Source: a virus. From it: a stretch of 41,525 nt of DNA. Shown piece after piece: positions 1,089 to 24,233 of this stretch (the first letter of the stretch is position 1; every line of letters begins with the position of its first letter). The position numbers and the translations under genes were made by a program. The stretch lies in the IMG/VR virus record IMGVR_UViG_3300035199_000310, positions 1 to 41,525 of that record; one strand, given 5' to 3'. The notes beneath the pieces were generated by a model. That model made no database searches. It saw only the letters and a list, made by a program, of their open reading frames with translations, and was not told the DNA's origin.

Positions 1089-1225
1089 ATCCGGGGGAAC
1101 CTTTTTGGATAAATTCGTAAATTGTTGCTAGCAAAAGACTTACGTGAAAGGGCGTTTTCGGCGCACGCCGTAAGTAGTTGGTATTAAAAGACTTAAAAAT
1201 TAATTGAAAAAAGGTTCCCCCGGAT
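1089..1225. repeat. Inverted-repeat element 1 (137 bp)
   Basis: ATCCGGGGGAACCTTTTT at 1089-1106 is matched exactly by its reverse complement within 1208-1225. About 49-50 bp inside each outer end is an ACTTAC box, at 1138-1143 on the plus strand and at 1170-1175 as GTAAGT, so the inner boxes also face each other. The interior is AT-rich compared with the flanks and holds no convincing gene. It lies between the leftward gene at 161-988 and the rightward early arm. A second element with the same layout is at 7256-7463. Origin, operator and mobile-element end are all possible. Confidence 0.8.
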
Positions 1226-1481
1226 GGCGGTGGGCACCGCTTAGAGGGCGAACATCGAACGCCCCACACGCTACATCGGGACAACAAGGGCGGGCGGTGT
1301 TCATTCCTTGAACCGGGGGAGGACTCCGACTGCGGTCGGGACGTTCTCCCCCGCCACCCACAACAAACCTCCCAGGGTGGCGTGAAGATTCAGTATCGAA
1401 GGACGGCCACCCTGGGAGCCACCCACACCTAGTGCGCAACCCCTCGTGGGGTTTTTGGAACCGTGAAACCGGAGAAAAATT
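1226..1481. promoter_or_regulatory. Gene-free leader with three successive hairpins
   Basis: No convincing gene is present. Three hairpins follow each other: GGGGGAG 1315-1321 with CTCCCCC 1346-1352 (and an inner CCGAC/GTCGG stem), CTCCCAGGGTGGC 1369-1381 with its perfect 13-bp complement at 1406-1418, and AACCCC-TCGT-GGGGTT at 1438-1453 followed by more T. They sit just before the first rightward gene, so they could be attenuators or structured leader RNA. No promoter could be assigned confidently. Confidence 0.6.
1438..1456 (+). terminator. Short intrinsic-terminator-like hairpin
   Basis: A 6-bp stem AACCCC/GGGGTT with a TCGT tetraloop runs straight into TTT. It is short but GC-rich and has the classic stem-then-T layout. 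It lies only about 25 bp upstream of the GTG start of the next gene. It would therefore end transcription entering from the left, or act as an attenuator for that gene. Confidence 0.5.
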
Positions 1482-1895
1482 GTGAACGGTATTCAAAGCT
1501 CCAAGCTGGACCCAAAGGCGCGCACTCTCACTGTGGTCTTCGACCTGGGAAGCGCTCAGACGAGTTCCACCGGGAAGACGACCATGCTGGCAAGCACGGG
1601 CGGATTCCAGATCGCCGACACGACGGCCAAACTGCCCCTGCATCGTGTTCTCTTCGAGGACGGCTCCGCAGTCGGAGCCGAGGGCAAGGAAGAGCTGGTC
1701 ATGCTCTCCGCGTCCGTGTCTGTCCCCATCGAGAACAAGGCGCGAAAGCGCCAGCTCAAGGAAGAGGCGATGCAGGACAAGGCGGACAAGGCCGAAGAGG
1801 AGGCGATGGTCGAAGCCGCCAAGGCACGAGGACGGGCCAAGGCCGAGCGAGAGTTCGCCGCCGTCCACAGCCTGGGAACCCTTCCCACGGCGTGA
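1482..1895 (+). CDS. Hypothetical protein with charged C-terminal helix
   Basis: This 137-aa protein starts with GTG, with GGAG about 7 nt upstream. I do not recognise the family. Residues about 1-85 look beta-rich and soluble (LTVVFDLGS..., ELVMLSASVSVPI). From about residue 87 on it is a long, Lys/Glu/Ala-rich helix (ENKARKRQLKEEAMQDKADK and onward) likely to form a coiled coil. It has no signal peptide or membrane segment. It is the first gene of the rightward arm, is preceded by structured leader RNA and is closed by a strong terminator. It therefore appears to be its own transcription unit, perhaps expressed early or at high level. Function is unknown. Confidence 0.75.
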   Translation: MNGIQSSKLDPKARTLTVVFDLGSAQTSSTGKTTMLASTGGFQIADTTAKLPLHRVLFEDGSAVGAEGKEELVMLSASVSVPIENKARKRQLKEEAMQDKADKAEEEAMVEAAKARGRAKAEREFAAVHSLGTLPTA

Positions 1896-1906
1896 GAGTG
1901 TAGTCG

Positions 1907-1955
1907 GAAGAATCCCCGCCCAGGGAGTAGTCTGGGCGGGGAATTCTTCTTTTTT
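1907..1955 (+). terminator. Strong Rho-independent terminator
   Basis: GAAGAATCCCCGCCCAG (1907-1923) pairs with CTGGGCGGGGAATTCTTC (1932-1949) with a single bulged base and an 8-nt loop, then runs into six T. This is the strongest intrinsic terminator in the window. It separates the first rightward gene from the rest of the early arm, which implies a further promoter between about 1956 and 2017. Confidence 0.92.
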
Positions 1956-2017
1956 CGTACCCTGCGCTTGTAGGCGAAAGGCGTGAAACCTGTACGGAGA
2001 ACACAAGGAGAGCCACG

Positions 2018-2284
2018 ATGACGAAGCACAAGACACCGATTCCGCGCTTAGTTATGGAAGTGCGGGAACAGATCCAAGAGGATCTTTTGTGTTACCTCGA
2101 CGGACGGTGCGGCGGGTATGGGGCTTCCGCTCGTAAGCGGGACAAGCGCATGAAAGATCGTGTGTGCGAGATCGTGGTGGAGAATTTTAAGAAGCTTTTA
2201 CCCCCCAAGGACCCTGGCACCAACGCCGACTGTGGCGCTCACAATCCCGAGCAAGGAGAGCACGATGAATTCAACCCGCATTGA
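2018..2284 (+). CDS. Small hypothetical protein
   Basis: The 88-aa product follows a good AAGGAG site. No family was recognised. It is basic and probably helical in the middle (ASARKRDKRMKDRVCEIVVE), and the last 20 or so residues (after LLPPKDPG) look unstructured. Its 3' end overlaps the start of the sliding-clamp-like gene by 20 bp in another frame, so the two are probably translated together. It is the first gene after the 1907-1955 terminator. Confidence 0.7.
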   Translation: MTKHKTPIPRLVMEVREQIQEDLLCYLDGRCGGYGASARKRDKRMKDRVCEIVVENFKKLLPPKDPGTNADCGAHNPEQGEHDEFNPH

Positions 2285-2837
2285 CGCCAACAAGGCCCGC
2301 GCTCTCCTGCACTTCGCTTCCAAGGAGCTTGGACGCTACGCAATCAATGGCGTGCATTTACGGCCAACGGAGGACGGCGGGACCATTCTGGAAGCAACCG
2401 ATGGGAAGAAGCTGATCCGAATTCCAGGGCGCCCTTGGGCTACCGATCGCGGTTCTCTCACCATCGAGAGCAAAGCTCTCGCTCTCGTGGCGAAGAAGAA
2501 GGCCGGTGAGAGGGAGCTGGAAGTTCGGCTCAACGGAGATGACGGTCTGTCTCTTGTCCGTGATGGGATGGAGGTTTCTGCCCCGACAGTTGAGATGGAC
2601 TTCCCGGATACGAATTCCGTGATGGAGGATCAGCCACGGCACAAGCCGGTTCGCATGGATGCTCGGCTCTTGCTGGAGTTGTGCAAGGGCTTCATCGAGC
2701 TGCACTCATCGACGCCCAAGGGAGACCCGATTCCCATCGAGTTCTCGGTCCCGGAGGAAGAGGGGCGCTCCGTTCTAATCCGGTCGGAGTTGGGAGACGA
2801 GCCCATCGAAGCCGTCATCATGCCAATGATGCGGTGA
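2265..2837 (+). CDS. Sliding-clamp-like (DnaN-like) protein, short form
   Basis: The 190-aa product begins at ATG 2265 behind AAGGAG; the open frame runs further upstream, but with no ribosome site. Residues about 20-50 (YAINGVHLRPTEDGGTILEATDGKKLIRI) have the clamp-subunit pattern ending in ATDGxxL. The protein ends IEAVIMPMMR, close to the VVMPMRL tail of bacterial beta clamps. It is about half the length of a three-domain DnaN (about 370 aa) and somewhat shorter than two-domain PCNA/gp45 clamps (about 230-260 aa). It would act as a processivity factor for the family A polymerase encoded downstream. The fold is inferred from motifs only. Confidence 0.6.
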   Translation: MNSTRIDANKARALLHFASKELGRYAINGVHLRPTEDGGTILEATDGKKLIRIPGRPWATDRGSLTIESKALALVAKKKAGERELEVRLNGDDGLSLVRDGMEVSAPTVEMDFPDTNSVMEDQPRHKPVRMDARLLLELCKGFIELHSSTPKGDPIPIEFSVPEEEGRSVLIRSELGDEPIEAVIMPMMR

Positions 2838-2920
2838 GCCCTTAGGCCCGTAGTCAGGGGGCCGAAACCCTGACGCCAACGGCCATGAGCCGACCACGAA
2901 CCCCGAGCAAGGGAGGCACG

Positions 2921-3016
2921 ATGATGGGAGACGCCGAAGACGTAGGGCGCTGCATTGCAGTCGTCCTGATGGCCGCTGCATTCTTCATTCTCTTCTTCCT
3001 CTTCACTGGAGTGTGA
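2921..3016 (+). CDS. 31-aa single-span membrane protein
   Basis: The start ATG at 2921 is preceded by GGGAGG at ideal spacing, and the stop is one base before the next ATG. A short polar N-terminus (MMGDAEDVGRC) is followed by a hydrophobic span of about 19 residues rich in Phe and Leu, so it should be a one-pass inner-membrane peptide. Function is unknown. Small early membrane peptides in phages are often host-takeover or superinfection factors, but nothing here proves that. Confidence 0.6.
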   Translation: MMGDAEDVGRCIAVVLMAAAFFILFFLFTGV

Positions 3017-3017
3017 G

Positions 3018-3413
3018 ATGCAGACGAACAAGGACATCTGCCCCAAGCATGGGTGCTACGAACCTTGCGACGACTGCAAGGTCGATGAGGAGAACCGCAT
3101 CGACGAAATGTCACGGCGAGACCCGGAGGATTGGGAGGAGGTAGCGCCGTGCAGGACAGCACACTACAACGAGCTACTTGCTCAGGGTGGTATTACTGGA
3201 ATCTTTACGGAAGCCCTGCACCTTATGTGGGAGGTGGGCGGCATCGCTGCGACTCTGCGCTCCGCTGAACTACTCCATGAAACCGCCACCAAGATGACTG
3301 CAACCATCCGTGAAACCGGGTCATCCCTGAAATCCCACCCAGACCTGCACGAAGCCTTTAGCACTGTTATTAACCTTGCGCCGACTAAGTGGCGTAGTGA
3401 AAGAAAGGGGTAG
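3018..3413 (+). CDS. Hypothetical protein with N-terminal Cys cluster
   Basis: The 131-aa product starts one base after the preceding stop. Residues 8-20 hold CPKHGCYEPCDDC, a compact metal-binding-like cluster of four Cys and one His. The rest looks helical with an acidic stretch, and has a moderately hydrophobic part (GGIAATLRSAELL) that is not a clear membrane span. No family was recognised. Confidence 0.65.
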   Translation: MQTNKDICPKHGCYEPCDDCKVDEENRIDEMSRRDPEDWEEVAPCRTAHYNELLAQGGITGIFTEALHLMWEVGGIAATLRSAELLHETATKMTATIRETGSSLKSHPDLHEAFSTVINLAPTKWRSERKG

Positions 3414-3416
3414 AGT

Positions 3417-3665
3417 ATGTTTATACGCTGCCCCGAGTGTGACTACCGTGTTCCCGAGTTCGACTCTCGGGATGGGCTCTGCCTCCGTCATTGGGAGCAG
3501 AGGCGACAAGAAGAGAGCGAGCACTTCGATGACAGCACTGAAGAGGAGACCTGCAATGACACGGAAGAACGGCAAAGCCCTAGAGAGCGAAGTGCGGGAG
3601 ATCAAGGCATCCGATCTGGCCAAGTGCCCCTTCATCATCTTCGTTGCGGAACACTACAACGCTGA
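3417..3665 (+). CDS. Small zinc-ribbon-like hypothetical protein
   Basis: The ATG at 3417 opens an 82-aa frame whose first 25 residues (MFIRCPECDYRVPEFDSRDG then LCLRH) hold a CxxC and a further Cys/His, as in a short zinc ribbon. The last third is overlapped out of frame by the next gene (3556-3765) for 110 bp and looks like non-selected sequence. The ancestral end may therefore be earlier, or a frameshift may have occurred. The N-terminal half is the reliable part. Confidence 0.5.
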   Translation: MFIRCPECDYRVPEFDSRDGLCLRHWEQRRQEESEHFDDSTEEETCNDTEERQSPRERSAGDQGIRSGQVPLHHLRCGTLQR

Positions 3666-3765
3666 TGGCTCATGCAAGTGCCACGATGCAGAGCACCGCG
3701 AGATGATGAAGCGCGAATGGGAGTACACCGACGAAGACTTCCGTGAGCAAGGGTTGATTCCGTGA
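3556..3765 (+). CDS. Small hypothetical protein
   Basis: The 69-aa product starts at ATG 3556 with GAGGAG upstream. It carries CKCHDAEH (about residues 40-47), a possible metal site, and an acidic C-terminus (EWEYTDEDFREQG). Longer in-frame starts upstream lack a ribosome site and would run inside the preceding gene. No family was recognised. Confidence 0.6.
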   Translation: MTRKNGKALESEVREIKASDLAKCPFIIFVAEHYNADGSCKCHDAEHREMMKREWEYTDEDFREQGLIP

Positions 3766-3788
3766 TGGAAACTGACGGAGGGTTGCCA

Positions 3789-4064
3789 ATGTATATCAAT
3801 CAGTATCATGTTTCCCAGCGCTACGGCGGGCCAGAAGAGGGCGGCTGGTGGTACTCTGCCGGGGAGTGTCTCCAGTCCATCAATGTAACTGACTGGCCCC
3901 AAAAGCTCATCGACAGCGTCCTTGAACAATTCCGGGTAGATGACAAGGCAATGAATGCTAATTTGCCCCCCTTCCACAGCGTGAACAGCGAGGGCAACTA
4001 CCGATCAGAGATCGAGGAGGAGCCGGGAGTGTCCTTCCCTGAGCAAAGGCCCCACTACGAGTAA
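3789..4064 (+). CDS. Conserved phage hypothetical protein
   Basis: The best start is ATG 3789 (MYINQYHVSQRYGGPEEGGW), with GGAGGG about 7 nt upstream. An in-frame GTG at 3762 overlaps the previous stop and would add nine residues. The YGGPEEGGWWY stretch looks like a conserved phage protein type of unknown function that I have seen as a hypothetical protein, but I cannot name a domain. The C-terminal third is acidic and probably disordered. The product is 91 aa from this start and soluble. Confidence 0.7.
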   Translation: MYINQYHVSQRYGGPEEGGWWYSAGECLQSINVTDWPQKLIDSVLEQFRVDDKAMNANLPPFHSVNSEGNYRSEIEEEPGVSFPEQRPHYE

Positions 4065-4417
4065 CTCGTCTGGGCGAGTCTAAACCGCTTTAAGCCCAGA
4101 GCGTCCCCGTCACAGTGTCGGGGGGTATGCAGCATTCTCTAAGGGAGTGATTGGTCTCGTTCCTGGCAGTAGCTACAACTCGATAGGTCCCTGGCATAGG
4201 TAAAGTTTTCTAGAGACTTCCCTCTATGTGTATTACCTCACTCAGTTCCGCTAGCTGCTGCGTTTAGACGAATGAAGTGGGGCAGCCTGTTCCTTTAACC
4301 GAGGGGCGGGCTGCCCTGCGCGTCTTTTCCCTCAACAGCTTGGATGAACCATGTGTCTAGCTATCCCAGGGACAAGCGTTATACGCCGTGGCATATGCTC
4401 GATAGCGAGGAAGACTG
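4065..4417. other. 353-bp gene-free stretch
   Basis: No open frame with a ribosome site was found, and no tRNA T-arm signature. It contains a hairpin (4280-4316) with the motif GTTCCTTTAACCGAG in its loop, a motif nearly repeated at 14224-14237. It separates the first small-gene cluster from the next, so a promoter or small RNA is possible. No consensus promoter could be assigned. Confidence 0.6.
4280..4316. terminator. Hairpin, possible weak terminator
   Basis: GGGCAGCC at 4280-4287 pairs exactly with GGCTGCCC at 4309-4316 across a 21-nt loop. A T-rich run (CTTTTCC) follows about 8 nt later, which is too far for a typical intrinsic terminator. The loop carries GTTCCTTTAACCGAG. Confidence 0.4.
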
Positions 4418-4534
4418 ATGGAAAAATGCCCTAGCTGTTCCAGCACGAACACCAAAATACTGAAAGCAGGATATAACACCGTATTATTCTGCAAAGACTG
4501 CAAGCACGAAGCTCACAAGCCGTGGAAAGGGTAG
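4418..4534 (+). CDS. 38-aa zinc-ribbon peptide
   Basis: The start ATG at 4418 lies behind GAGGAAG, and the stop is three bases before the next gene's ATG. The peptide has CPSC near residues 4-7 and CKDC near 29-32, with the usual 20-odd residues between them, which is a complete four-Cys zinc ribbon. It also has basic residues at the end (KHEAHKPWKG). Such mini-ribbons bind nucleic acid or proteins. The exact role is unknown. Confidence 0.7.
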   Translation: MEKCPSCSSTNTKILKAGYNTVLFCKDCKHEAHKPWKG

Positions 4535-4536
4535 AG

Positions 4537-4767
4537 ATGAAAACCCAGCACTTCGAACCGGTCCTCAATGCAATCCTCGCTGCGGACAATCCCCACCTGA
4601 CCGCTCTGCACACGGTGCAAGCTGCTGTAGACTATGCCACTAAAAATAGTGGCCTACCTAAAGGTTACTTGGACCAAATGCAGGACGCTGTAGACTATCT
4701 CACCGCTTCTTGGGTGGCGGATCGTGCAATGGAAATGGCCAGGGCAGAGGAAACTAATAATGACTGA
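4537..4767 (+). CDS. Small helical hypothetical protein
   Basis: The 76-aa product starts at ATG 4537, two bases after the previous stop, with GGGTAGAG upstream; an in-frame GTG at 4522 is less likely. The sequence looks all-helical, with a repeated feel (VQAAVDYATKN and MQDAVDYLTAS). No motif or family was recognised. It overlaps the SprT-like gene by 8 bp. Confidence 0.65.
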   Translation: MKTQHFEPVLNAILAADNPHLTALHTVQAAVDYATKNSGLPKGYLDQMQDAVDYLTASWVADRAMEMARAEETNND

Positions 4768-5335
4768 GATAAATAGGGAGGCGTGGCTAAACGAGGCGTG
4801 TAAACGCATGAAGCCCTTGGTCGATGGGTGCGCCGACTCCGGGGAGTTCGAGTTGCCCCTGATCTCGGTCGGCTGGCCAAGGGGTAGCCGGGGAGGGAAG
4901 GGACACATCATCGGGCAGTGCTGGGACAAGAAGGCCAGCGGCGACAAGACCAGGGCGCATATCTTCATCGCGCCTGACCAGACCGATGCGGTGTCGGTGC
5001 TCTCTACGCTACTGCATGAGATTGTCCATGCCAGCGTCGGCACCGCCTGCGGACACCGCAAAGAGTTCCGCAAGGTCGCACTGGAGCTGGGCTTCGCTCC
5101 GCCCATGACCAGCACCCCTATGGGTGAGGAACTGAAGAAAACGCTCACGCAATTGGCTGACGTTATGGAGGAGTACCCCCACCCTGGGCTGCTGCGACAG
5201 AAGAAGAAGGTGGGGTCAAGGCTGCTCAAGGTGCAGTGCCCTCGCTGCGAGTGCATTGTCCGAATGACTAGGACTTGGCTAGCTTCGGTGGGTCCGCCTA
5301 CCTGCGGCTGCGGAGTCCAGATGAAGGAGGCATGA
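4760..5335 (+). CDS. SprT-like zinc metallopeptidase
   Basis: This 191-aa protein has the active-site helix HEIVH at residues 86-90, with the third zinc ligand likely H99 in GHRKEF. That is the SprT/WLM arrangement. The C-terminus carries a zinc ribbon (CPRC at 160-163 and CGC at 182-184), also typical of SprT proteins. The family cleaves proteins, including DNA-protein crosslinks in eukaryotic SPRTN; the phage role is not established. The start overlaps the preceding gene by 8 bp. A second, smaller HExxH protein is encoded at 7638-8015. Confidence 0.88.
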   Translation: MTEINREAWLNEACKRMKPLVDGCADSGEFELPLISVGWPRGSRGGKGHIIGQCWDKKASGDKTRAHIFIAPDQTDAVSVLSTLLHEIVHASVGTACGHRKEFRKVALELGFAPPMTSTPMGEELKKTLTQLADVMEEYPHPGLLRQKKKVGSRLLKVQCPRCECIVRMTRTWLASVGPPTCGCGVQMKEA

Positions 5336-5649
5336 AAGCGGTGAACATTCATACGTCAAATGTCATCATCACCCCTGAAGGGCGGGTGGGGCCGGTGCCC
5401 GATCCTGCGGATGGGGAGAAGCACTCACTGGAGGAGCTTCAGGCTATGGTGGGTGGCCCAATCGAGATCATCAATTGCCCGCTGCGACCGCCTGCCACTA
5501 GGCACCGCATCATGGTCGTCCATGAGGAGGGGAAGCGCAAGGAGCTGCCGCCGAATGGGCTGGCAACTTACTTGGCTGGCCCATACATTTTCAGGGATGA
5601 CCACATCGTAGGTACCGTGGTCTACTGCGACTCGGACCTGGCCAAGTGA
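5332..5649 (+). CDS. DUF3846-like hypothetical protein
   Basis: The 105-aa product follows an ideal AAGGAGG, and its ATG overlaps the SprT-like stop. The order LEELQAMVGGPIEIINC, then IMVVHEEGKRKELPPNGLAT, then IVGTVVYCD matches my memory of DUF3846, a phage and plasmid family of unknown function. No catalytic motif is seen. Confidence 0.65.
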   Translation: MKAVNIHTSNVIITPEGRVGPVPDPADGEKHSLEELQAMVGGPIEIINCPLRPPATRHRIMVVHEEGKRKELPPNGLATYLAGPYIFRDDHIVGTVVYCDSDLAK

Positions 5650-5852
5650 GTCGCTGCGAAGACTACCCCTGCTGCGGGCACGGCCCGCCTCCTATGGGTG
5701 ATGGCGGCGGCTGCCCAACGGTGCTTGAGGACGGGACAACCATTTGGCCCTGCGCCCGATGCGGCGCGCCGCTGCCCCAGAACAGCCCGTCAGCGGTTTG
5801 CAAGGGTTGCCATAGAGATTGGCGGCGAATAGACTATGAGGAGCGGCACTGA
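5646..5852 (+). CDS. Small Cys-rich conserved phage protein
   Basis: The start is GTG at 5646 in a GTGA overlap with the previous stop. The 68-aa product opens MSRCEDYPCCGHGPPPMGDG, a phrase I associate with conserved phage hypothetical proteins, and has further cysteines in CARCG and CKGC pairs. It is probably a small zinc-binding protein. Role is unknown. Confidence 0.75.
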   Translation: MSRCEDYPCCGHGPPPMGDGGGCPTVLEDGTTIWPCARCGAPLPQNSPSAVCKGCHRDWRRIDYEERH

Positions 5853-6229
5853 TGGGACAATACTTCATCGCGGTCAACGAGGACAAGCAGGAGTGGATCC
5901 ATCCGCACCGCTTCGGCGATGGGATGAAGTTCCTGGAGCTGGCGCTCTCGGGCGGCGGGTTCCTGGCGGGCCTGGCGGTGCTGCTCCGAAAGAGTACGGT
6001 GCATGGGCTCGGCGACCTGAAATGTAGGGACAAGGTGGTGGGCTCGTGGGCTGGCGATCGGGTCAGCATCGTTGGGGACTATGACAAAGACAAGGGCATT
6101 CTATACTTCAATGTAATGGATGGGGAGGAGAGCTGGACTGACGTTAGTGCAGAGGTAATTCGCGCTCTCAAGGAGAGTGCATTGATCCGAGAATACTTTG
6201 ATTCAAAGGAGGGCTACCCACATGATTAG
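5852..6229 (+). CDS. Conserved phage hypothetical protein
   Basis: The 125-aa protein starts in a TGATG overlap, with GAGGAG upstream. It opens MGQYFIAVNEDKQEWIHPHR, a phrase seen in a conserved phage family with no assigned function. A glycine-rich hydrophobic segment (about 33-44, SGGGFLAGLAVLL) is short and probably buried rather than membrane-spanning. The second half alternates like beta strands (WAGDRVSIVGDYDKDKG). Confidence 0.75.
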   Translation: MGQYFIAVNEDKQEWIHPHRFGDGMKFLELALSGGGFLAGLAVLLRKSTVHGLGDLKCRDKVVGSWAGDRVSIVGDYDKDKGILYFNVMDGEESWTDVSAEVIRALKESALIREYFDSKEGYPHD

Positions 6230-6506
6230 CACGCACGGCTTGATCAAGGACAACACGAATGACAAGTCTATCTGCCAGACGGTTACCATGCTCAATCAGT
6301 ATGGGGGCGGTACGGTCGAGATGGTCTTCGAGCAGAGTTCTTGGTCGGATGGGGCGGTGAGCATCACCATGAAGAGCGATGGGCTGAAGGCGTCGGTGTC
6401 GGTGCATGATGTGGCGATCACGGCGCTGATCAATGCGCTCTGCCGGGTCAGGGAGTGGGCGCCGAAGCCTGAGGAGAAGAAGGAGGAGGAGAATGCTGAC
6501 GCTTGA
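6222..6506 (+). CDS. Hypothetical protein
   Basis: The 94-aa product starts at ATG 6222 with AAAGGAGGGC upstream and overlaps the previous gene by 8 bp. It is mixed alpha/beta with an acidic and lysine-rich tail (PKPEEKKEEENADA). No family was recognised. Its end overlaps the first gene of the duplicated pair by 14 bp. Confidence 0.7.
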   Translation: MISTHGLIKDNTNDKSICQTVTMLNQYGGGTVEMVFEQSSWSDGAVSITMKSDGLKASVSVHDVAITALINALCRVREWAPKPEEKKEEENADA

Positions 6507-6612
6507 AGAGCGGGATGAGCTGGTCAAGGCGCTGAAGAATGGGGAGACATTCGTTTCTGATAGCGCGTACTGGAAGGGGTGCGACTACGGGCCGGCGGCG
6601 GCGATCCCCTGA
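6493..6612 (+). CDS. 39-aa protein, copy 1 of duplicated small gene A
   Basis: The ATG at 6493 has AGGAGGAGG just upstream, inside the previous gene. The core NGETFVSDSAYW (about residues 16-27) matches NGETFVSSSAFW in the protein at 6830-6982, and both end in AIP. The stop abuts the GTG of gene B in both copies. Family and function are unknown. Confidence 0.6.
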   Translation: MLTLEERDELVKALKNGETFVSDSAYWKGCDYGPAAAIP

Positions 6613-6840
6613 GTGACACTCAAGCTCTGCGAGTTGCGCGGAGATACGCTGACGCCCTGGGACGATCGCGCCGATTCTGTGTCCAATTGGAGGCCATCGT
6701 TGAGGGCGCTGGGTGCTTCTCTCGATGGCTGGCGCGGAAGGCCAGGCCGTAGCGCCCTTGAGCCGTACAGCTACCTCGATTGGTCTGATGAGACACTCAT
6801 CGAATGCCTTGGAGAAATGGAGGCCCCCGATGCCGAGTAG
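6613..6840 (+). CDS. 75-aa protein, copy 1 of duplicated small gene B
   Basis: The gene starts with GTG immediately after the stop of gene A (TGA then GTG). It opens MTLKLCELRGDTLTPWD; the second copy at 6983 opens MTLRLCELRGAKLIKWS. The first 40 nt are nearly identical between copies, while the rest has diverged. Small, soluble, no known domain. Confidence 0.6.
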   Translation: MTLKLCELRGDTLTPWDDRADSVSNWRPSLRALGASLDGWRGRPGRSALEPYSYLDWSDETLIECLGEMEAPDAE

Positions 6841-6982
6841 ATTGACGGAGGTGGAGGCAAATGCCCTCGCCCAAATGCTTGAGAACGGCGAGACGTTTGT
6901 CTCTTCCTCAGCCTTCTGGCTGAGCAAGGAAAGTAGGGAGCGCTATAGCGACTCCATTGAAAACGAGGAGGCAATCCCATGA
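6830..6982 (+). CDS. 50-aa protein, copy 2 of duplicated small gene A
   Basis: The ATG at 6830 overlaps the end of gene B copy 1 and is preceded by ATGGAGG. The product opens MPSRLTEVEANALAQMLENG and then carries the shared NGETFVSSSAFW. It is about ten residues longer than copy 1 between the shared core and the AIP end. Confidence 0.6.
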   Translation: MPSRLTEVEANALAQMLENGETFVSSSAFWLSKESRERYSDSIENEEAIP

Positions 6983-7258
6983 GTGACGCTGCGGCTCTGC
7001 GAGTTGCGTGGGGCGAAGCTGATCAAGTGGAGTGGGCAGATGACGCACCAGGATGGGTTTGAGACCGTGAGCCGGAGCTTTGACTTCGACTCCAGCTCCA
7101 ACGAGCTGTGGTTGAATGTGGTAAGGGCGCTGCGAGATGCGGCGGGAATCGTCTACGATGATTACGACACAGTTAAACGCGAGGTGACGGATTACTTCGC
7201 TATGGAGGAGACGGATTTGGCAGGCGTCCTTCGGAATCCCCATCCTCGCCACCTATAG
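6983..7258 (+). CDS. 91-aa protein, copy 2 of duplicated small gene B
   Basis: The GTG start directly follows the stop of gene A copy 2, the same junction as in copy 1. It opens MTLRLCELRGAKLIKW and then diverges into an acidic, helical C-terminal part. The stop codon TAG is the first part of the outer arm of inverted-repeat element 2. Function is unknown. Confidence 0.65.
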   Translation: MTLRLCELRGAKLIKWSGQMTHQDGFETVSRSFDFDSSSNELWLNVVRALRDAAGIVYDDYDTVKREVTDYFAMEETDLAGVLRNPHPRHL

Positions 7259-7463
7259 GCACCTTTCGACCTATTGGAATTGACGCAAAACGGGGCGGCG
7301 ACTGGACTTACGGCGGTTTCTGGCCGAAACGTGATTCTGGTCGTCGCCCCGATCGTCGGGGGGTGCTCTCTGGTCGGCTGGAAAAACACGGAAAGCGGCG
7401 AAATCGCGGTAAGTCGTTTGTTGACGGACGATTGCGGCGATTGAATAGGTCGAAAGGTTCCTA
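7256..7463. repeat. Inverted-repeat element 2 (208 bp)
   Basis: TAGGCACCTTTCGACCTATT at 7256-7275 is matched, with one mismatch, by the reverse complement of 7444-7463. As in element 1 (1089-1225), an ACTTAC box lies 50 bp inside the left end (7306-7311) and its complement GTAAGT 49 bp inside the right end (7409-7414). The ACTTAC flanks also match imperfectly (ACTTACGGCGGTTTC against ACTTACCGCGATTTC). Between the boxes is a nested hairpin region (GTTTC-TGGCC-GAAAC, and GGGGCGGCGAC against GTCGTCGCCCC). No gene is present. It immediately precedes the replication block. Confidence 0.8.
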
Positions 7464-7477
7464 ATAGGAGCACGGCG

Positions 7478-7690
7478 ATGGTTTCAAACTTACGGGGGAG
7501 GGAACCCCGGAGTCGGCGGGTAGAGTTTCTGTTGAATCGCTCTGAGCTGGAGTCGGTTGAGCTGGCCGCCTCTGAGCAGGATTGTCCAGTTGCTCATGTC
7601 ATCAGGGCCGCTTTGCGCGCATACCTACCAGAGAGAGATGGCCGTGGGGCATACCGGAGAAAAAGCAAAGCGAAGAAGAAAACTTCTTAA
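7478..7690 (+). CDS. Ribbon-helix-helix-like small protein
   Basis: The 70-aa product follows AATAGGAG. Residues about 14-50 (RVEFLLNRSELESVELAASE... VAHVIRAALRAYL) have the strand-helix-helix pattern of Arc/CopG-type DNA-binding proteins. The C-terminus is very basic (YRRKSKAKKKTS). It begins 15 bp after the end of inverted-repeat element 2, so it may bind there and regulate its own operon. That link is inference. It overlaps the next gene by 53 bp. Confidence 0.6.
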   Translation: MVSNLRGREPRSRRVEFLLNRSELESVELAASEQDCPVAHVIRAALRAYLPERDGRGAYRRKSKAKKKTS

Positions 7691-8015
7691 GACTGTGCGC
7701 CTACTTAGGGTCTTCGTATCCCCTAAAGATGGGCGCTCAGTCCATGTGCGGATTACGGACGATGTCCCCAATGATCGGCTCGGCGACTGCACGCAGCGCA
7801 AAGACTACTACCTGATTCGTTTAAACAAGTCCGTTATCGAGAACTCACCCGATGCCGTTTACCTAGTGCTTGCCCACGAGTGGGCGCATGTAATCGCCTG
7901 GGAATCTGGCAGCTACGATCATGGCGACAGTTGGGGTCTTGCCATTGCTCGGTGCTGGCGGGTAATAGCAGGAGAAATCAACGCGGGGGATTTACACAAT
8001 GTTGCAGTGGATTAG
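7638..8015 (+). CDS. Small HExxH metallopeptidase-like protein
   Basis: The best start is ATG 7638 (125 aa) behind GAGAGAG; the frame is open further upstream but would overlap the preceding gene heavily. The motif HEWAH at residues 80-84 and a third histidine at 96 (DHGDSWG) give the HExxH...HxxxW layout of gluzincin/SprT-like mini-peptidases. The N-terminus is basic (KAKRRRKLLK). It is the second zinc peptidase of the window, sits directly before PrimPol and overlaps it by 17 bp. Substrate is unknown. Confidence 0.75.
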   Translation: MAVGHTGEKAKRRRKLLKTVRLLRVFVSPKDGRSVHVRITDDVPNDRLGDCTQRKDYYLIRLNKSVIENSPDAVYLVLAHEWAHVIAWESGSYDHGDSWGLAIARCWRVIAGEINAGDLHNVAVD

Positions 8016-9564
8016 TCTAAGTGAGATGGGCTATTGGGTTTTCCCTACCCGAAACCGGCAGAAGTACCCCACTACACTTAACAATAAAAAGTGGGACGCA
8101 TTCATTGAGGACAATGACCAAGAGCTGCTCCATGCCCACCTTCTCCATGAGACTGGCACCGGAGCGGCCCTCTGCCCCCAACCGGCGGACAAGGTCGGAC
8201 TACTCATACTCGATCTGGATACATACGGTATGGCCTTCGATGATCTGTGGCCCCATGTATGTCCAGGCGAGAAACCCGAGAAGTCTCTGCTGGTGATAGG
8301 CTCACCTAGCGGCGGCTACCATCTCTGGTTTAAACTCCCCGAAGGCGTGAACGCTGATCGTTTGCCTGCCACGTTTGATTTCGGGGAGGGGGTGACTGGG
8401 GAGGTCAGGGCATCGTCAAAAGCGCGCCGCCTCATCATGCTCCCTGGTTCTCTAGTCGTGAATAAGAATGGAAAGCCTGCCAAGTATCGTATCTTGCAGG
8501 GCGAGCTAGATCCCGCTACTCTTTCACTGCCGCCTACCTCGCTGATGACCCGGCTCATTGCTCGGAAAGATCAAGGTAAGGCAAGCGAAGGGAATCAGCC
8601 CACCGAGGTGCTGCACTTCATTGAGATGTTAGAGCACTTGGAAGGCGTAAAACCAGGGGATCGAAACAACTTCATCGCTCGGGTGGGGCAGATCATGGGG
8701 CGTTTACACCCCGGAAAGAGCCTAGTCCCAGAGCTAGTGAACGCTGTTTGGAAACAACTCCACCCAAAACTAGGCCCTGACTTTGAAGAAAAGGAGTTCC
8801 GTATCGCGGTGAACTCTGGCTGGTCAACCGGGAGCAAGAACGCCGAGAAGTACCAGGCCAAAGAGAAGCACCCCAGCGTTTCGGATGTCAGAGCAGAGTG
8901 TGAGGGGATTTTTTCCGGTGTGCCCTGGCTGGTAGAGGTCCGGGACAGCACCGGAAAGACTAAAGAGTGGATGGTTGGGTTCGGCGGGTCAGCCAAGCGG
9001 CGTCACGAAGCTCGGCGGGTCACCCATCTGGGTAATTTAAACGACATCCTTCCTACGCTTACCCGATTATCCAGCGCTAGTCTTGATACCGTGGCACGAT
9101 CTCCGTTATTTATCCAACCAGGTTGGGCTAAAGTATTGGAGTATATGCTCAGTACCGAGAAGGCTGTGGATCAACTAGGTATCCCACCGGAAGAGCGGTT
9201 CTGGGAATTGCTTGAGGAGTGGTCTAGAATTTCTGCGGGAGATTTGCTATTTATTGAGGCTTGGACAGAGCGGAGGCCGCTAGGAGCATCGACCGCCTTC
9301 GTTGTCTGGCCGCTCACAGAAGAACAGCCACCTTCACTGGTCATCCCTCCGCTGCTTCAGGAAACAATGCTGACCCAGCTAGGTGATATACCCAAAGCAA
9401 AGCGCTTGGTATCGAAACACTTGTTACAGAAAACTCTAGTGGGCATGCGATCAGGCCAAAAGGTTTGGGTGTGCCCTTTGTCTCAACTGCAACCGGAAAC
9501 GCAAGAATACATCGGCGCGCAGTATGAGCATTTTGTTACCCGCAAGGATTCTGAGGAGAAGTAA
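7999..9564 (+). CDS. PrimPol-type primase-polymerase
   Basis: This 521-aa protein has an N-terminal bifunctional primase/polymerase domain (about residues 1-190): LLILDLDTYG with the catalytic D72xD74, SPSGGYHLWF with H108, then GEVRASSKARRLIMLPGS and NGKPAKYRI, in the family order. The third acidic position looks like E135. The C-terminal 330 residues have no Walker A motif, so this is not a primase-helicase fusion of the usual kind. It should make primers, and perhaps extend them, for the polymerase encoded downstream. GGGGA precedes the ATG. Confidence 0.88.
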   Translation: MLQWISLSEMGYWVFPTRNRQKYPTTLNNKKWDAFIEDNDQELLHAHLLHETGTGAALCPQPADKVGLLILDLDTYGMAFDDLWPHVCPGEKPEKSLLVIGSPSGGYHLWFKLPEGVNADRLPATFDFGEGVTGEVRASSKARRLIMLPGSLVVNKNGKPAKYRILQGELDPATLSLPPTSLMTRLIARKDQGKASEGNQPTEVLHFIEMLEHLEGVKPGDRNNFIARVGQIMGRLHPGKSLVPELVNAVWKQLHPKLGPDFEEKEFRIAVNSGWSTGSKNAEKYQAKEKHPSVSDVRAECEGIFSGVPWLVEVRDSTGKTKEWMVGFGGSAKRRHEARRVTHLGNLNDILPTLTRLSSASLDTVARSPLFIQPGWAKVLEYMLSTEKAVDQLGIPPEERFWELLEEWSRISAGDLLFIEAWTERRPLGASTAFVVWPLTEEQPPSLVIPPLLQETMLTQLGDIPKAKRLVSKHLLQKTLVGMRSGQKVWVCPLSQLQPETQEYIGAQYEHFVTRKDSEEK

Positions 9565-18163: not shown

Positions 18164-18393
18164 TTGTTCCCAGGCTCCTCAACTTTGGTTTCTATAACAG
18201 TCATGCGATGCTCGATCTCTAGCATGAAGGCAGCTAGATCACGGTCGCGGGCCTTGTTCTCCTCGTCGATCTGATCGACCTTCGACCAGAGCGTAGTCAG
18301 TAGAAACATCGTCACTGCCAGAAGGGCTCGGCTGATAATGGTGAACAGCCGTTCTTCCAGTGAGGGACGGGTGGGTTTAGTAGTCGTAGCCAT
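18160..18393 (-). CDS. Membrane coiled-coil protein, possible i-spanin or holin
   Basis: The 77-aa product has one membrane span (about 18-38, ending FLLTTLW) and then a charged coiled coil (VDQIDEENKARDRDLAAF... ). The cytosol-side start is basic. The layout fits an inner-membrane spanin of minimal size. Its 3' end overlaps the lipoprotein gene by 4 bp and its start overlaps the 1946-aa gene stop by one base. Confidence 0.6.
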   Translation of the reverse strand: MATTTKPTRPSLEERLFTIISRALLAVTMFLLTTLWSKVDQIDEENKARDRDLAAFMLEIEHRMTVIETKVEEPGNK

Positions 18394-21300
18394 TATTCAA
18401 GCGCCTGCTCCTGATGGTTCGCGACCATGCCTCGTAGCGTCGTAGCCAGCATTTGGACGTTTTGCATATACTTCTGCTTTATGACCGGATCGTCTGTTGC
18501 AGCAGCTTTAAGCTCCAACTTGCGCACCAAAGACTTGTAATTATGGTAGGCGTGGATGACCTCCGCCTTATGGCGAACCTTCCGAACACCCAATCCAAAG
18601 TCCGTGTCGGCCATTCGTTTCTCCATCGGAGTGTAGTCTACATAGGGAGACTGCTCCTCCTTTGAAGGTAGCCCGAAGTCAGCGCCTGCACTTTTGGCAG
18701 CTATGAGAGCCAGTTTAATTGGCCAGATAGCAGTGCGTGCGTCGTTCCAAGTATCAGGCTTCGCCATTCCGGTGCGGCCTCCCTGCGGAATGAAGCGAAC
18801 CCCGCCGCCCAGAATGGAGGCCAACCCGCCGAAGGACGTAAGCCCCGCATCTGTAATTTGATTCGTCATTACATTGGGATCGTAAGGGTGCATGTGGCTA
18901 TCGCCCATGCCCACACCACGCCCGATTGGAAGCGCGAGGTTATCGGCGAAGGCACCAATCATCATGGTAGCTTCCATATTGGCGTTTAGACGGCCAACAT
19001 CGAGGCGATAGTCGCCGAGCTTGAGGTGCGCGCGACCCTCATCTGTCGAGATGAGCTTCTTCTGTTTGATCGTATTAGCCAGCACGGATAGTTTGGAAGG
19101 GTCTTCCATAAACTTTGACCAGGCCCACGGCATGTAGTGCCGGGGGAAGGAATAGTAAAGGAAAACCCTTTTCAAGACGTTCCGCTCCGTGGGCGTCAGG
19201 CGCTCATACGGAACGTGGGCATTCTTTGTAATTTCAATGGCGCGCCCTAGTGAGTGACCTTCACGCACCAGGCCAAGGGCCGTCGAGGTACGGTTGATCG
19301 CCTCTGAAACTTCTCGTAGCTCTCCGGGCTCGCCGCCAAATGTACGGATGAGCTTGGCCAACCCCCGATGCCCCGCCCTATGCACTTCTTTATCGTCCAA
19401 CGCCTCCATTTTAAGCTTAACTAGGATATCAGGAACAGTGCGCGAGCCTCTACTCAGCGAAGAAGCAAAGGTGCCGTAGAGGCCCCTGTCTGCGGCTTCG
19501 CGTAGGAAGTCCGACATGGCCAGCTCGCCGCCATCAGGTAGGGGGAGGAACATATCGGGGACGCGGTCAATACCATACGCTTGAAATTCTTTTGCAGTTG
19601 CTTGATCCATGACGGCGCCGCCACGTTTAACGGCGTTCATCGCCGTAAGGCGGGCCATTCGGATGCCTCCCCTAAATTCGGAGGCTGGGATACCCATTAG
19701 ATCAGGCATGATATCAGCATGTCTGATGAAATTAGTATCGCCCCAAAGCAATTTAAAGGTATCAATGTAACTAACAATCAGATTCTTAGGTGAGACACCC
19801 GCCATGCTTGCTTGGAAGACGCCGGACGCCAGGTTAGCAACGTGGAAAGGTACCCGAAAAACAGTCTGGAAAGACTTAATCATATAGTTAATACTATCGA
19901 AGTTACGCCAGGCGGCAGGTGTAACCTGAATCGTCTGGGCCGCAGTCTTCGTTGCTCCTAGAATGATATTTTTGGCGCCGTAGACAACGTGCTGCCCCAC
20001 AAGGTCATAGATATTTCCAGAAGTGCCGTAGGGCACCTGCATCATGTCGGATGCTTTGGAGAATTTCCTATCCAGGTCAGAACGAACTGATGCGCGCACG
20101 AATGATTGGGCAGCGGTAGGCAGTACGTCTCCGAGATTCGTGCTCGGCTTCCCTAGTTGCAAGAAACCGAAGCCCGTTTCCATGTCCATAGCGGCAGGGA
20201 TCTTGAGCTGCCTACCATCAGAAGCCTCTACAAGAACATAGGCAGGTTTCCCAGCCTTCAGGAACTTAGCTTGACGAGTAACCGTAGCCTGTCGGCGGCC
20301 TTCAGGTAAGTCTTTGTATACGACCTCATCACTCATGTAAGCGGGCTTAATCGGATTTCCCGCATCATCCAAGACCGCGACTACCTTGCCCCCGAAGGCC
20401 AGGATGTCGCCGTCCGCAGTTGTGCCTGCCTTCAAGAAAGCCTCAAAATACTTCTCAAGGGAATCGTTGTTATTCGCGTTGGCAAGCCTTGTCAATGTAT
20501 TAAGGATCGGGTCTTCGACGAGGCGCTTGCCCGTCCATTTAAGCTTTTTTCTTACGCCCTTAACCACCAGACCTTCCTTCTGCATGATCTCATCGAGATC
20601 GTTAAACCACTGGCGCATCGGCGTTCCGGCGCCGCCTCCCTGCAAGACCTCCTCAGGAAGATCGGCCAGGTGCTTAGGCTGCTGGCCCGCGATGATCTGG
20701 CGCAGGGATTCGTGAACATCGTTAAGTGTCTCAATCGACATCGAGTCGTGGTGTCGAGCAAAGTGCGACGAGCTTTTATCGGTAAGACGCATTAGAATTT
20801 GATTACCCAGCTCGTCATGATCCATGCTACCGAGAACACGGGCGACGACTTGGCTAGACGCAGTGTTGAAGTAGCGCCCCACATACCCAATTGGGGAGCC
20901 GGGAACATACTGACCAGAACGCCGGGCGGCGACAAAGATATTCTTGCTGACATGGCGCATACCTTGGAGCATTTTTGTAAGTGGCTCAGGCATATTGGCC
21001 AAGACCATCTTGTTGATCTCGCCGCCCATCATGGTTAGTGATTCGGAAATACTTTCCAAAATCTCTGGAGGTATATCCGGCACCACATCTTTATGCTTGT
21101 GCATATTAAGCCACTTGACCATCTCCTTGAGATTTATGCTGGCAGAGCCATACGCCTGTGCCCAATCTGAGAGTTGCTTTCGCACGAGAGGTGACTGAAC
21201 AAGCCCGGCAGTTTCCGTGAGGTCGTCCAAGAAGAGATTTTCGGCGCGTTGGAATTCTACTGGACTGGGCTTCTGCGGCTCCAGTCTCGGTACATTGGCG

Positions 21301-24233
21301 GCCTCAAAACGCATATCCAGCTCCTTACCTGGACGGGTTTCGCCGAGTATATTGGGCTCTTTAAGTCTATTCTCCGCCGTAAATAGGCGCTGTTTATGGG
21401 CCTGATTAAGATAGCGATAGTCAATCGCGTTACCTATTTTAGCTAGCTCTTCGTAAGCGGGCATGATCGCGGCAGGCTTAACGCCTGACCACGCAGCCAG
21501 TTCTCTTTCGTCAAAGAGAGTTCCGCTACCTCTGAGGATCTTACGCGCCTCGGGGCTAAGCTCTTTCCTGAGAGCCGCTAATTTACCTACTGGTATATCT
21601 TGGTGTGTTAGAGTTGTAATCTTCTTCAACTGCTCCGGGGTCATGGCCGCGACATCGGTACCAAAAGATGCGCGCCATTTCGAGCTAACGTCAGAGTCCA
21701 ACCACTGCCTAGACTTTTGCATAGCCTCCGAGATAGTTTTGAAAGACCACCCCGCCCGCTCAAAGTCCGTCAGCTCTAGGACAGAGGCTTCAAGTCGGGC
21801 ACCTTGGCTGGGTACAACTCGATAGCCACCTTCGATTGCTTCAATTTCCAAGCCAAAATGAGTTAGCGCGTTAGACGCCTGCGGTTGTGTCCACTTTTTT
21901 CGGGAAGCCGCCCACACAGGATAGCGCGTGGGTGAAGAGCTACGGGTGATGCGGCGAGCCTGACCTCGTCCGGTACGGTTAAACGCCTCCAAAGCTTCTT
22001 CCATAGTTAAATTATTGTTTTTACGAAAGGTGCGTAGATCCGACGCCGCGTCTGAATTATTGGCATAATCAAGAATTTCTTGTGGGGTATACTTACGTCT
22101 ATTTCTACTATTGTTTCGGATATCGTCTAGCGACTGGAGCAACTGGTCGTCGGTAAGCTCGCCGACCGGCGTATCCTGAAAGCGCCCGCCTTGTAGGGAA
22201 TGCTTGTTGTAGCGGCGGCGCATCCGAAATTTTTGCTGGGGCGTAAATACCTTAATAGCAGCGTTCTTACCCAACTCCAACATACGATCAAAGGTAGCTG
22301 AGATACCTTGCTCTTCAAGCCTAGGAAGAAACTCAAATACGTTTCGATTTAGAACATCGGTCAAGCGCTGTGTCGTCTCGTCTTTGACATCCTTAGAGGT
22401 CAAAAGCCGCTTCATTGTGGACATAATCTGTGAGTGGCGCTCGGTGTAGTCTTGCCAGCCCTGTGCCACCTGTAGTGCATTAGTAGAATTTACACGGCTA
22501 AGTTTAAGTGATTCTACCAACTCAACGTGATGAGTAGTAAGCTCCGCCATATAGCCCATGACGGTCTCGACATCGTCCGAACTCCAAGTTTTCATTGCAG
22601 GGTCTTTTAATATCTGTTTCTGTACTTGATAAAACATTTTTGCAAATTGAGTTACTTGTTCGGCGCCCTGCGATGTATTTACAAGAAACTTCTGCATCGC
22701 CTCCTGTGCGTGCCGCGTCTCTTGTCCTGTATGGAAAATGTTATTGACCAGCTTACGGGCCGAGACACCAGCGTTAAACGTAGCTTCAGCGAGTGGCTCG
22801 GTGAGACTAGACAGCTCCCCTCGTTGGTCTAGCAGCTTTGCCGCCTTGGCATCGACATCCAGGAAGGACAAGGTCGCGTCGTACTGCCCACTACGAATCA
22901 ACTCACGCGCCTGCTCACCCTGCGCGGCTGCGTTATTCAACTTCTTCCTTAATTGGTTTCTGAAGCCTTCGGGAGTAGTTGGAATCTTGACGCCTGCGGC
23001 GTTTGCTGTATCTACACCACTAAGACGCGCCCAAATCTGCTCCATAGTATCGTCTGAATTACTGATGCCCCGCATTGTTTTCATAAAGGCGGTCTCAATA
23101 GGCTCGCCCGGCTTTAGCGCCCGCAACCGCTCCTCAAACGTATCCATGATTTTATCGGGAGTGCGTAGAGCAATTTGGTGGGAGATGTCACCGCCCCCCG
23201 TATCCGCGTTTGCCCAGTGGCGGATCGTATTGAAATCCTTTTCAGTGTAAGCCTTTCGCGCCTCTCGAATAGCCGTCCTGGCTTCGGCGCCAACCGCCCA
23301 GCCGCCCGCGAACTGGCGCAGCGGAGCGCTTGCCTCCTTCAAGAAGCGCCCCACAACAGGGATGCCCGCGACAGTACGGGTCAGATAGCTGGAAACAGCG
23401 CTATCACCGGCTCGTTGCTTACCCGCCTTTAAAAGCTGCCACCAACTCTGGTGCTCGCCGGGGATATGGATACGAGCGCCTAGTGTGGCTAGACCTGGGA
23501 GGCCAAGAGCGAGCTTGCGATGGCCCTCACTCTTCAGCAGCTCGCGGACAGGGCGACTCATCTGCTCAGCGCTGAGATTGCCAATTAGTTTTTCTGCCTT
23601 ATTGAGACCGCGTAGCTGCGAACCAGCATTCTTATACTTATGTGGGCTGCCTCTAACATTTCGCCTGGCGTGCTCGATAACACCGAGCATGTCTTGACCC
23701 GTTAAGGTTGATACGAAATCTTCCGTACTACTAAAGGTTCTAGGCTTTTGGGAGGGCTTTGCGCCCTGGTATTGTTTCAGATTTCGGCGCGCCACATCAC
23801 CGATAGCAGGTGTCGGAATCGGCAGGTCAAAGCGGCCCTCTGCCTTTGAAGCGGCCTTGACTATCCGCGTAATCGACGACATCTTGGCAGCCTGATTGAT
23901 TCCTTTGACGCCCTTGCCCAAGGTGCTCAGGCCACCCGTTAGGTAGGTGAGCGGATCGGACAAGACGGCAGCGCCGATCTCACTCTTCCAGCCGGTGTCT
24001 CCTGGCTTAATGCCGAACATAGTTTCGGCCATATAGTCCGGCATCACATCTTCTTTGTGATCGTCGAACCAGCCCAGCAAAGGTACGTTGGCGAAATCTA
24101 GCAGACCCTTCTCACTGAAGAGGTCAACGTCATCCTCTTTCAGCGCCCGGAGAATACGCCAAAGAACCTGCTGCGGCAGGCCAATAGAGGAGTTGAAGAT
24201 GCGGTCAATAAGCCCCGCTTGCTGGGAAGCCAT
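18393..24233 (-). CDS. Giant internal virion (ejection) protein, 1946 aa
   Basis: At about 5.8 kb this is the largest gene. AGGGG precedes the ATG. It is rich in helical, charged segments throughout, with hydrophobic stretches near the N-terminus (about 85-125) and in the last 600 residues. A conserved-looking block at about 1690-1705 (LYYSFPRHYMPWAWSKF), after NVLKRVF, resembles a C-terminal motif seen in large podoviral ejection proteins. By position (last virion gene, after two other internal proteins) it corresponds to T7 gp16-like proteins, but no transglycosylase active site was recognised. Confidence 0.75.
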   Translation of the reverse strand: MASQQAGLIDRIFNSSIGLPQQVLWRILRALKEDDVDLFSEKGLLDFANVPLLGWFDDHKEDVMPDYMAETMFGIKPGDTGWKSEIGAAVLSDPLTYLTGGLSTLGKGVKGINQAAKMSSITRIVKAASKAEGRFDLPIPTPAIGDVARRNLKQYQGAKPSQKPRTFSSTEDFVSTLTGQDMLGVIEHARRNVRGSPHKYKNAGSQLRGLNKAEKLIGNLSAEQMSRPVRELLKSEGHRKLALGLPGLATLGARIHIPGEHQSWWQLLKAGKQRAGDSAVSSYLTRTVAGIPVVGRFLKEASAPLRQFAGGWAVGAEARTAIREARKAYTEKDFNTIRHWANADTGGGDISHQIALRTPDKIMDTFEERLRALKPGEPIETAFMKTMRGISNSDDTMEQIWARLSGVDTANAAGVKIPTTPEGFRNQLRKKLNNAAAQGEQARELIRSGQYDATLSFLDVDAKAAKLLDQRGELSSLTEPLAEATFNAGVSARKLVNNIFHTGQETRHAQEAMQKFLVNTSQGAEQVTQFAKMFYQVQKQILKDPAMKTWSSDDVETVMGYMAELTTHHVELVESLKLSRVNSTNALQVAQGWQDYTERHSQIMSTMKRLLTSKDVKDETTQRLTDVLNRNVFEFLPRLEEQGISATFDRMLELGKNAAIKVFTPQQKFRMRRRYNKHSLQGGRFQDTPVGELTDDQLLQSLDDIRNNSRNRRKYTPQEILDYANNSDAASDLRTFRKNNNLTMEEALEAFNRTGRGQARRITRSSSPTRYPVWAASRKKWTQPQASNALTHFGLEIEAIEGGYRVVPSQGARLEASVLELTDFERAGWSFKTISEAMQKSRQWLDSDVSSKWRASFGTDVAAMTPEQLKKITTLTHQDIPVGKLAALRKELSPEARKILRGSGTLFDERELAAWSGVKPAAIMPAYEELAKIGNAIDYRYLNQAHKQRLFTAENRLKEPNILGETRPGKELDMRFEAANVPRLEPQKPSPVEFQRAENLFLDDLTETAGLVQSPLVRKQLSDWAQAYGSASINLKEMVKWLNMHKHKDVVPDIPPEILESISESLTMMGGEINKMVLANMPEPLTKMLQGMRHVSKNIFVAARRSGQYVPGSPIGYVGRYFNTASSQVVARVLGSMDHDELGNQILMRLTDKSSSHFARHHDSMSIETLNDVHESLRQIIAGQQPKHLADLPEEVLQGGGAGTPMRQWFNDLDEIMQKEGLVVKGVRKKLKWTGKRLVEDPILNTLTRLANANNNDSLEKYFEAFLKAGTTADGDILAFGGKVVAVLDDAGNPIKPAYMSDEVVYKDLPEGRRQATVTRQAKFLKAGKPAYVLVEASDGRQLKIPAAMDMETGFGFLQLGKPSTNLGDVLPTAAQSFVRASVRSDLDRKFSKASDMMQVPYGTSGNIYDLVGQHVVYGAKNIILGATKTAAQTIQVTPAAWRNFDSINYMIKSFQTVFRVPFHVANLASGVFQASMAGVSPKNLIVSYIDTFKLLWGDTNFIRHADIMPDLMGIPASEFRGGIRMARLTAMNAVKRGGAVMDQATAKEFQAYGIDRVPDMFLPLPDGGELAMSDFLREAADRGLYGTFASSLSRGSRTVPDILVKLKMEALDDKEVHRAGHRGLAKLIRTFGGEPGELREVSEAINRTSTALGLVREGHSLGRAIEITKNAHVPYERLTPTERNVLKRVFLYYSFPRHYMPWAWSKFMEDPSKLSVLANTIKQKKLISTDEGRAHLKLGDYRLDVGRLNANMEATMMIGAFADNLALPIGRGVGMGDSHMHPYDPNVMTNQITDAGLTSFGGLASILGGGVRFIPQGGRTGMAKPDTWNDARTAIWPIKLALIAAKSAGADFGLPSKEEQSPYVDYTPMEKRMADTDFGLGVRKVRHKAEVIHAYHNYKSLVRKLELKAAATDDPVIKQKYMQNVQMLATTLRGMVANHQEQALE

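Follow-up and report, generated by a model that had tools for sequence, protein, structure and literature searches.

A conserved two-fold symmetric DNA element precedes the RHH and Prim-Pol genes of a phage lineage and is probably a control switch for replication genes

Introduction

In the Sulfolobus plasmid pRN1, orf56 and the Prim-Pol (archaeo-eukaryotic primase/polymerase) gene orf904 lie in one operon, and ORF56 has been proposed to bind its own promoter (PMC3869888); replication of this plasmid also needs a 100-nt stem-loop of low sequence conservation (PMC4234260). In pMV158/pLS1, PMC5717011 describes the ribbon-helix-helix (RHH) repressor CopG as co-transcribed with a replication gene and repressing it, and the DNA in the CopG co-crystal is only 22 bp long (1ea4). 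A third RHH regulator, NikR, reads a 28-bp split palindrome, GTATGA-N16-TCATAC (PMC7055735). Here we analysed a 41,525-bp IMG/VR virus record (IMGVR_UViG_3300035199_000310, hereafter the window) that carries two inverted-repeat elements, E1 (1064-1250) and E2 (7256-7463), the second of which stands directly before an RHH gene and is probably a control switch for the replication genes. To our knowledge, little is known of origins and switch sites in phages that use archaeo-eukaryotic primases, and E2 has sharp boundaries, can be aligned and lies beside the gene for a candidate binding protein.

The locus resembles pRN1 in having a gene for a small, presumed RHH repressor ahead of Prim-Pol, with ORF56 as the best PDB match of the phage RHH profile (2k9i, E 1.6e-4) and CopG following it, and in having a hairpin element of low sequence conservation. 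It differs from pRN1 in its phage-like genome, its separate helicase and DNA polymerase A (PolA), the SprT-like gene inserted between RHH and Prim-Pol, and its presumed operator, a 208-bp two-fold element. The CopG/repB operon of pMV158/pLS1 appears similar too, as an RHH gene accompanies a replication gene there and CopG is the top fold match of the phage protein, with weak E-values; however, the 22-bp co-crystal DNA contrasts with the 208 bp of E2, and the CopG/repB operon is not known to have a second site with a long hairpin. As for NikR, its 28-bp split palindrome is comparable to the 29-bp palindrome R29 described below, but this is a resemblance only: R29 differs in sequence and spacing, and no metal-binding domain was seen in the 70-aa phage protein.

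Results

E2 is conserved in place, span and boxes

When the whole window was scanned for ungapped dyads, only three scored at least 13, with E1 first (19) and E2 second (17); the two inverted-repeat elements of the original prediction are thus real, being the two strongest dyads of the window. E2 is a 208-bp two-fold symmetric element (7256-7463) whose left arm, TAGGCACCTTTCGACCTATT (7256-7275, + strand), overlaps the stop codon of the open reading frame (ORF) at 6983-7258, and whose right arm (7444-7463, - strand) reads TAGGAACCTTTCGACCTATT in reverse complement. The first seven copies were found via the polymerase and primase genes, independently of the element itself. When 2.9 million viral contigs were then searched for a pair of arm cores with flexible spacing (TTCGAC pattern), 21 stretches were returned, 20 of which belong to relatives (L047 was rejected), giving 14 distinct E2 copies with the window included. 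By comparison, a control pattern with degenerate arms gave 14 matches, only one of them a true relative.

E2 occupies the same position in all copies whose contigs carry flanking genes. Its arms (CTATTAGgNACCTTTCGACNTATTC) are conserved and its inner sequence is variable, and the span between the arm cores is constant at 187-190 bp across the 14 copies. Half-site logos showed the same boxes in the left and right halves, namely CTATTAGgNACCTTTCGACNTATTC, CGYAA, CTTRCG-NCGAAT, AAA and GTTTC, which extend about 60 bp inward of the arm and well exceed the null information content (0.26 bits, 99th percentile). Conserved place and dimension, identical boxes in both halves and a predicted DNA-binding-protein gene directly behind the element all speak for the earlier suggestion of paired protein-binding sites, whether operator or origin. 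What mainly excludes chance is the conservation seen in relatives.

Transposon ends and resolution sites can look similar, with inverted arms around an internal box, and nested inverted repeats, conserved boxes and a variable centre are also found in N15-type telomere sites, integron attC and other hairpin recombination sites. The idea that the elements are the ends of a minimal transposon, like those of a miniature inverted-repeat transposable element, or a recombinase or resolution site had been raised from the sequence and was not supported by the comparison. There is one E2 per genome, not copies at varied places; place and span are fixed in all relatives, the interiors differ, and nothing pointed to copies at other places in the genomes. 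In addition, no recombinase gene was identified beside the element and no protelomerase or integrase gene was identified, and the phage site is unrearranged in all contigs. Matches to the E2 pattern in prokaryotic genomes were rejected as chance, with scattered spans and no homologous genes. We therefore regard a mobile or recombination element as highly improbable.

A predicted RHH gene follows E2 and heads the Prim-Pol gene block

The gene behind E2 (7478-7690, + strand) starts 14 bp after the element and encodes a 70-aa CopG-like RHH DNA-binding protein, the proposed autoregulator. It is followed by a SprT-like ORF (7557-8015, + strand; PF10263, E 4.9e-9), whose start is probably later than the listed TTG, and by the Prim-Pol gene (7999-9564, + strand; PF09250, E 1.1e-6), the proposed second and third genes of the operon; the helicase and PolA genes come next. 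An RHH gene (55-82 aa) follows E2 in all 14 copies and also in the more distant relative L072. In the 14 copies it starts 13-40 nt past the arm core (all at most 41 nt) and lies in line with Prim-Pol. Three relatives score above the gathering threshold of Pfam RHH_1, whereas the window copy alone falls below threshold (13.9 bits to CopG_antitoxin) yet aligns throughout. The predicted fold begins with an ill-defined segment, after which two helices adopt the RHH arrangement. The locus thus has the layout of autoregulated RHH replication operons of the pRN1 and pMV158 type: a gene identified as RHH from family models and fold comparison stands immediately ahead of the replication gene, in the same orientation, and is itself preceded by a dyad, the putative operator.

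Two more distant relatives, found via the primase alone, extend this comparison. L072/L073 carry arm cores TTCGAGCTAT on both sides with a span of 200, and L076, the most distant, shows at the E2 place a dyad of different arm sequence whose length is greater by 22 bp. These span increments are roughly plus one and plus two helical turns, which is suggestive from two cases only. In L072 the arm core changes from TTCGAC to TTCGAG on both sides, and the RHH recognition strand reads HRMQVNV in place of HRLEIRL. The conserved strand is R-x-E-x-R and that of L072 is R-x-Q-x-N; because the window has R-x-E-x-L, only the Glu tracks the arm. Arm core and recognition strand having changed together, L072 is a natural candidate for a specificity swap. 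The dyad of L076 (8389-8630) has wholly different arms, GGTTCTGCCATTT, and the regulator may have been replaced there.

A 29-bp palindrome is common to E1 and E2

E1 (1064-1250) is a long imperfect dyad with 43-nt arms (1064-1106 and 1208-1250, 81% complementary) that occupies the gap separating the leftward late block from the rightward early genes. Dinucleotide shuffles of this region (60 in number) reached a dyad score of at most 10, against 19 for the real sequence. The element had been drawn at 1089-1225; a dyad does lie there, but it reaches wider. ACTTAC boxes occur at 1138, 1170 (-), 7306 and 7409 (-), and the window holds no excess of this hexamer (14 occurrences, 11.2 ± 3.5 expected). 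The original prediction saw the same geometry in both elements, with the box 49-50 bp inside each outer end. This equality is an artefact of the choice of arm ends. With the shared GGNACC core as reference point, the distances are 42/43 bp in E1 and 48/47 bp in E2.

Nor do the elements consist simply of four copies of one 55-bp half-site, as had been supposed. When the half-sites were aligned beyond the outer repeats and compared with shuffled sequences, the check that the prediction itself had proposed, the outcome was uneven. The two halves of E2 aligned better than shuffled sequence (p 0.001), the right half of E2 matched either half of E1 weakly (p 0.01-0.02), the two halves of E1 were marginal (p 0.049), and the left half of E2 aligned with neither half of E1 better than shuffled sequence. 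In the register of that prediction, all four half-sites agree only in ACTTAC and in an AA located 18-19 bp ahead of it.

These invariant bases are the two halves of a 29-bp palindrome, R29 (CGYAA-N19-TTRCG), which is common to E1 and E2 and contains ACTTAC in its right half. In E1, the left copy CGTAAATTGTTGCTAGCAAAAGACTTACG (1116-1144) is an exact match with equivalents at the E1 position of relatives, and the right copy CGTAAGTAGTTGGTATTAAAAGACTTAAA (1169-1197) is R29-like and weaker, being a direct repeat of 1116-1142 (27 nt, 81% identical). In E2, the palindromes P2 (CGCAAAACGGGGCGGCGACTGGACTTACG, 7284-7312) and P3 (GGTAAGTCGTTTGTTGACGGACGATTGCG, 7408-7436) lie exactly 124 bp apart, a distance of 122-124 bp in all relatives, and P3 keeps exactly the same distance from the right edge in each of the 14 copies. 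The two elements therefore do share a motif, as predicted, and it recurs at both places in relatives. One further R29 (G003:18247), within an ORF and without a hairpin, was set aside as probable chance. Since R29 is common to both elements and the window also shares a partial arm between them, one factor could coordinate E1 and E2.

Hairpins at the E1 position are strong, but their arms are unrelated

Among the 11 genomes examined, the E1 position holds a hairpin far above shuffles in nine (the window, G001, G002, G004, G008, G010, G013, L045 and L072) and none in G003 and G007. The dyad scores are 16-32 against shuffle maxima of 9-14, with folding z-scores of -4 to -16, and the arm sequences are unrelated between genomes. 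R29 lies within 1 bp of the dyad centre in G001, G002, G010, G013 and L045 and about 5 bp off it in G008 and L072; the window has two copies about the centre, and G004 lacks R29 at its hairpin. Relatives with merely random sequence at both places would have refuted the prediction, by its own terms. For E2 this check did not refute it; for E1 a strong hairpin persists in nine of the 11 genomes, the window included, but its arms do not correspond.

Such a pattern, in which structure is conserved and sequence poorly so, is that of the ~100-nt stem-loop of pRN-type origins. Accordingly, E1, and perhaps E2, might be the start site for Prim-Pol and the helicase, with the RHH protein serving as copy control. 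The strength of the hairpins despite their unrelated arms, R29 at the hairpin centre in five relatives, the Prim-Pol, helicase and polymerase genes downstream of E2 and the analogy to pRN1 all favour this explanation. However, two genomes lack the hairpin, E1 is AT-rich in some genomes only, and GC skew, another check that had been proposed, shows no switch at E1 or E2 and has its minimum near 31-33 kb. The arrangement also departs from pRN1, whose stem-loop lies 3' of the primase gene, whereas E1 lies in the early/late gap about 7 kb upstream of Prim-Pol (1064-1250 versus 7999). Moreover, the PF09250 match of the window Prim-Pol covers the N-terminal domain only, and no SF3 helicase domain was found in this protein. 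An origin role for E1 is possible by analogy and is the chief alternative to the operator proposal made below, and the full origin module is an explanation that we consider doubtful but credible. If the E1 hairpin is the origin, the pRN1 stem-loop model would extend to a phage lineage.

Another explanation takes the palindromy of E1 as a by-product, either of identical divergent promoter-leader units or of arms homogenised by template switching, so that only R29 and a few bases are selected. It would suit the unrelated arm sequences and a further inverted pair at the ribosome-binding regions of both divergent genes in G008 and G010, and homogenisation of inverted-repeat arms by template switching is known (PMC8604942). 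Against this, R29 stands repeatedly at the dyad centre, long hairpins occur in nine of the 11 genomes, and generic drift would not keep 40-60-nt arms per lineage unless the process were frequent. We hold a by-product to be unlikely.

Three observations concern the surroundings of E1. The third strongest dyad of the window is a perfect 13-bp hairpin, CTCCCAGGGTGGC (1369-1418), between E1 and the first early ORF. Two relatives' contigs start at the E1 hairpin or no more than 40 bp away from it (G005, L015:2-30; G001, reversed, 1-177), which looks as if assemblies, or the DNA, break there. The gap itself is bordered by a leftward 275-aa ORF (161-988, - strand) whose start faces E1 and which belongs, with the terminase, to the leftward late block, and by the first rightward early ORF (1482-1895, + strand; 137 aa); neither has a family match.

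A putative autoregulated operon with E2 as candidate operator

With moderate confidence, we propose that E2 is the operator or nucleoprotein site of an autoregulated RHH-Prim-Pol operon and that E1 is a second site at the divergent early/late region. E2 would be a double-stranded-DNA operator or nucleoprotein-assembly site heading the replication operon. RHH dimers would bind it, with the conserved arms as probable and R29 as possible contact sites, and the bound protein would bridge the two halves at a fixed helical phase. The RHH-SprT-PrimPol operon would thereby be repressed by its own RHH product until replication proteins are needed, much as ORF56 and CopG keep down the synthesis of replication proteins in pRN1 and pMV158, and E1, which also carries R29, would tie the early/late divide to this factor as well. 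A more ambitious joint claim is that these parts form an undescribed phage module, with a helically phased 208-bp RHH element heading the Prim-Pol operon and a fast-evolving R29 hairpin as stem-loop origin, which would amount to a pRN1-like replication system inside a lineage of uncultivated podovirus-like phages; this we consider distinctly unlikely.

Several points weigh against the operator proposal. At 208 bp and with multiple boxes, E2 is far above the size of a typical RHH operator, and the search for sigma-70 promoters recognised none within or close to either element of the window, so E2 would be an operator without a visible promoter. The adjacency of the RHH gene does not count as separate evidence, since synteny extends over the whole block; no RHH gene was found behind the L076 dyad, and the co-change of arm and RHH protein in L072, a pointed coincidence, is a single case. 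A plain operator would not need the self-complementary yet unconserved arms at the E1 position. Finally, the coding strand of E2 folds better than the other strand in all 14 copies, and in five of them 0-1 of 25 flanking windows equals this difference, which would suit an RNA. This strand bias is mostly removed by controls but not fully explained away.

On that alternative, E2 is a structured RNA, either as leader of the RHH-PrimPol mRNA or as a small RNA in its own right, with an outer stem P1 and hairpins P2 and P3, and the consensus fold does give the outer arms together with P2 and P3. Composition-controlled shuffles, however, traced the larger part of the strand difference seen in the first seven copies to G/T-rich composition, and the fold z-scores of the alignment are similar on both strands. 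Variable stem positions show no covariation: R29 positions 3 and 27 vary independently (C-G 7, T-A 14, C-A 7, T-G 6; Fisher p 0.30), and the N position of the arm is freely mismatched, pairing no better than random. Neither element has an Rfam match in the window or in 8 relatives, the interior fold lines differ between relatives, and RNA loops seldom combine constant length with variable sequence. We judge an RNA to be improbable. Because variable stem positions lack covariation and the span is fixed, the halves of E2 look as if they are read as duplex DNA, and from its sequence pattern recognition as double-stranded DNA fits better than RNA.

Candidate promoters inside E2 were also considered. 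Sigma-70 -10-like hexamers (TATACT/TACAAT) lie near its centre in some relatives, and they were rejected, as the pooled -10 profile scored no higher than the best of the shuffles.

Gene content and further features of the window

Early and replication genes run rightward over 1.5-16 kb and late genes leftward over 16-41.5 kb. The window encodes an SU10-like portal and a terminase, and its replication genes comprise Prim-Pol (PF09250), the SprT-like protein, a UvrD-like helicase and PolA. Among 50,697 phage records, no close cultured relative was found and the Prim-Pol and exonuclease had no match; the terminase and polymerase match cultured phages only at less than 30% identity.

Two giant late proteins of 1946 aa and 1813 aa are encoded at 18393-24233 and 28464-33905 (- strand). 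Neither had a Pfam or PDB sequence match, and an N4-like virion RNA polymerase using hairpin promoters was set aside for want of a PDB match; relatives of the 1813-aa protein are 38-63% identical. In the early region, a Pistol self-cleaving ribozyme was detected at 4064-4130 (+ strand; RF02679, 55 bits). It is a conserved feature in part of the lineage, since it is also present at L014:3347-3418, L015:1747-1811 and L036:5586-5669. The early region further encodes a conserved 203-aa protein of unknown function (4724-5335; phrog_6361; 49-67% identity in relatives), which contains an HEIVH motif, in addition to the SprT-like ORF adjoining E2.

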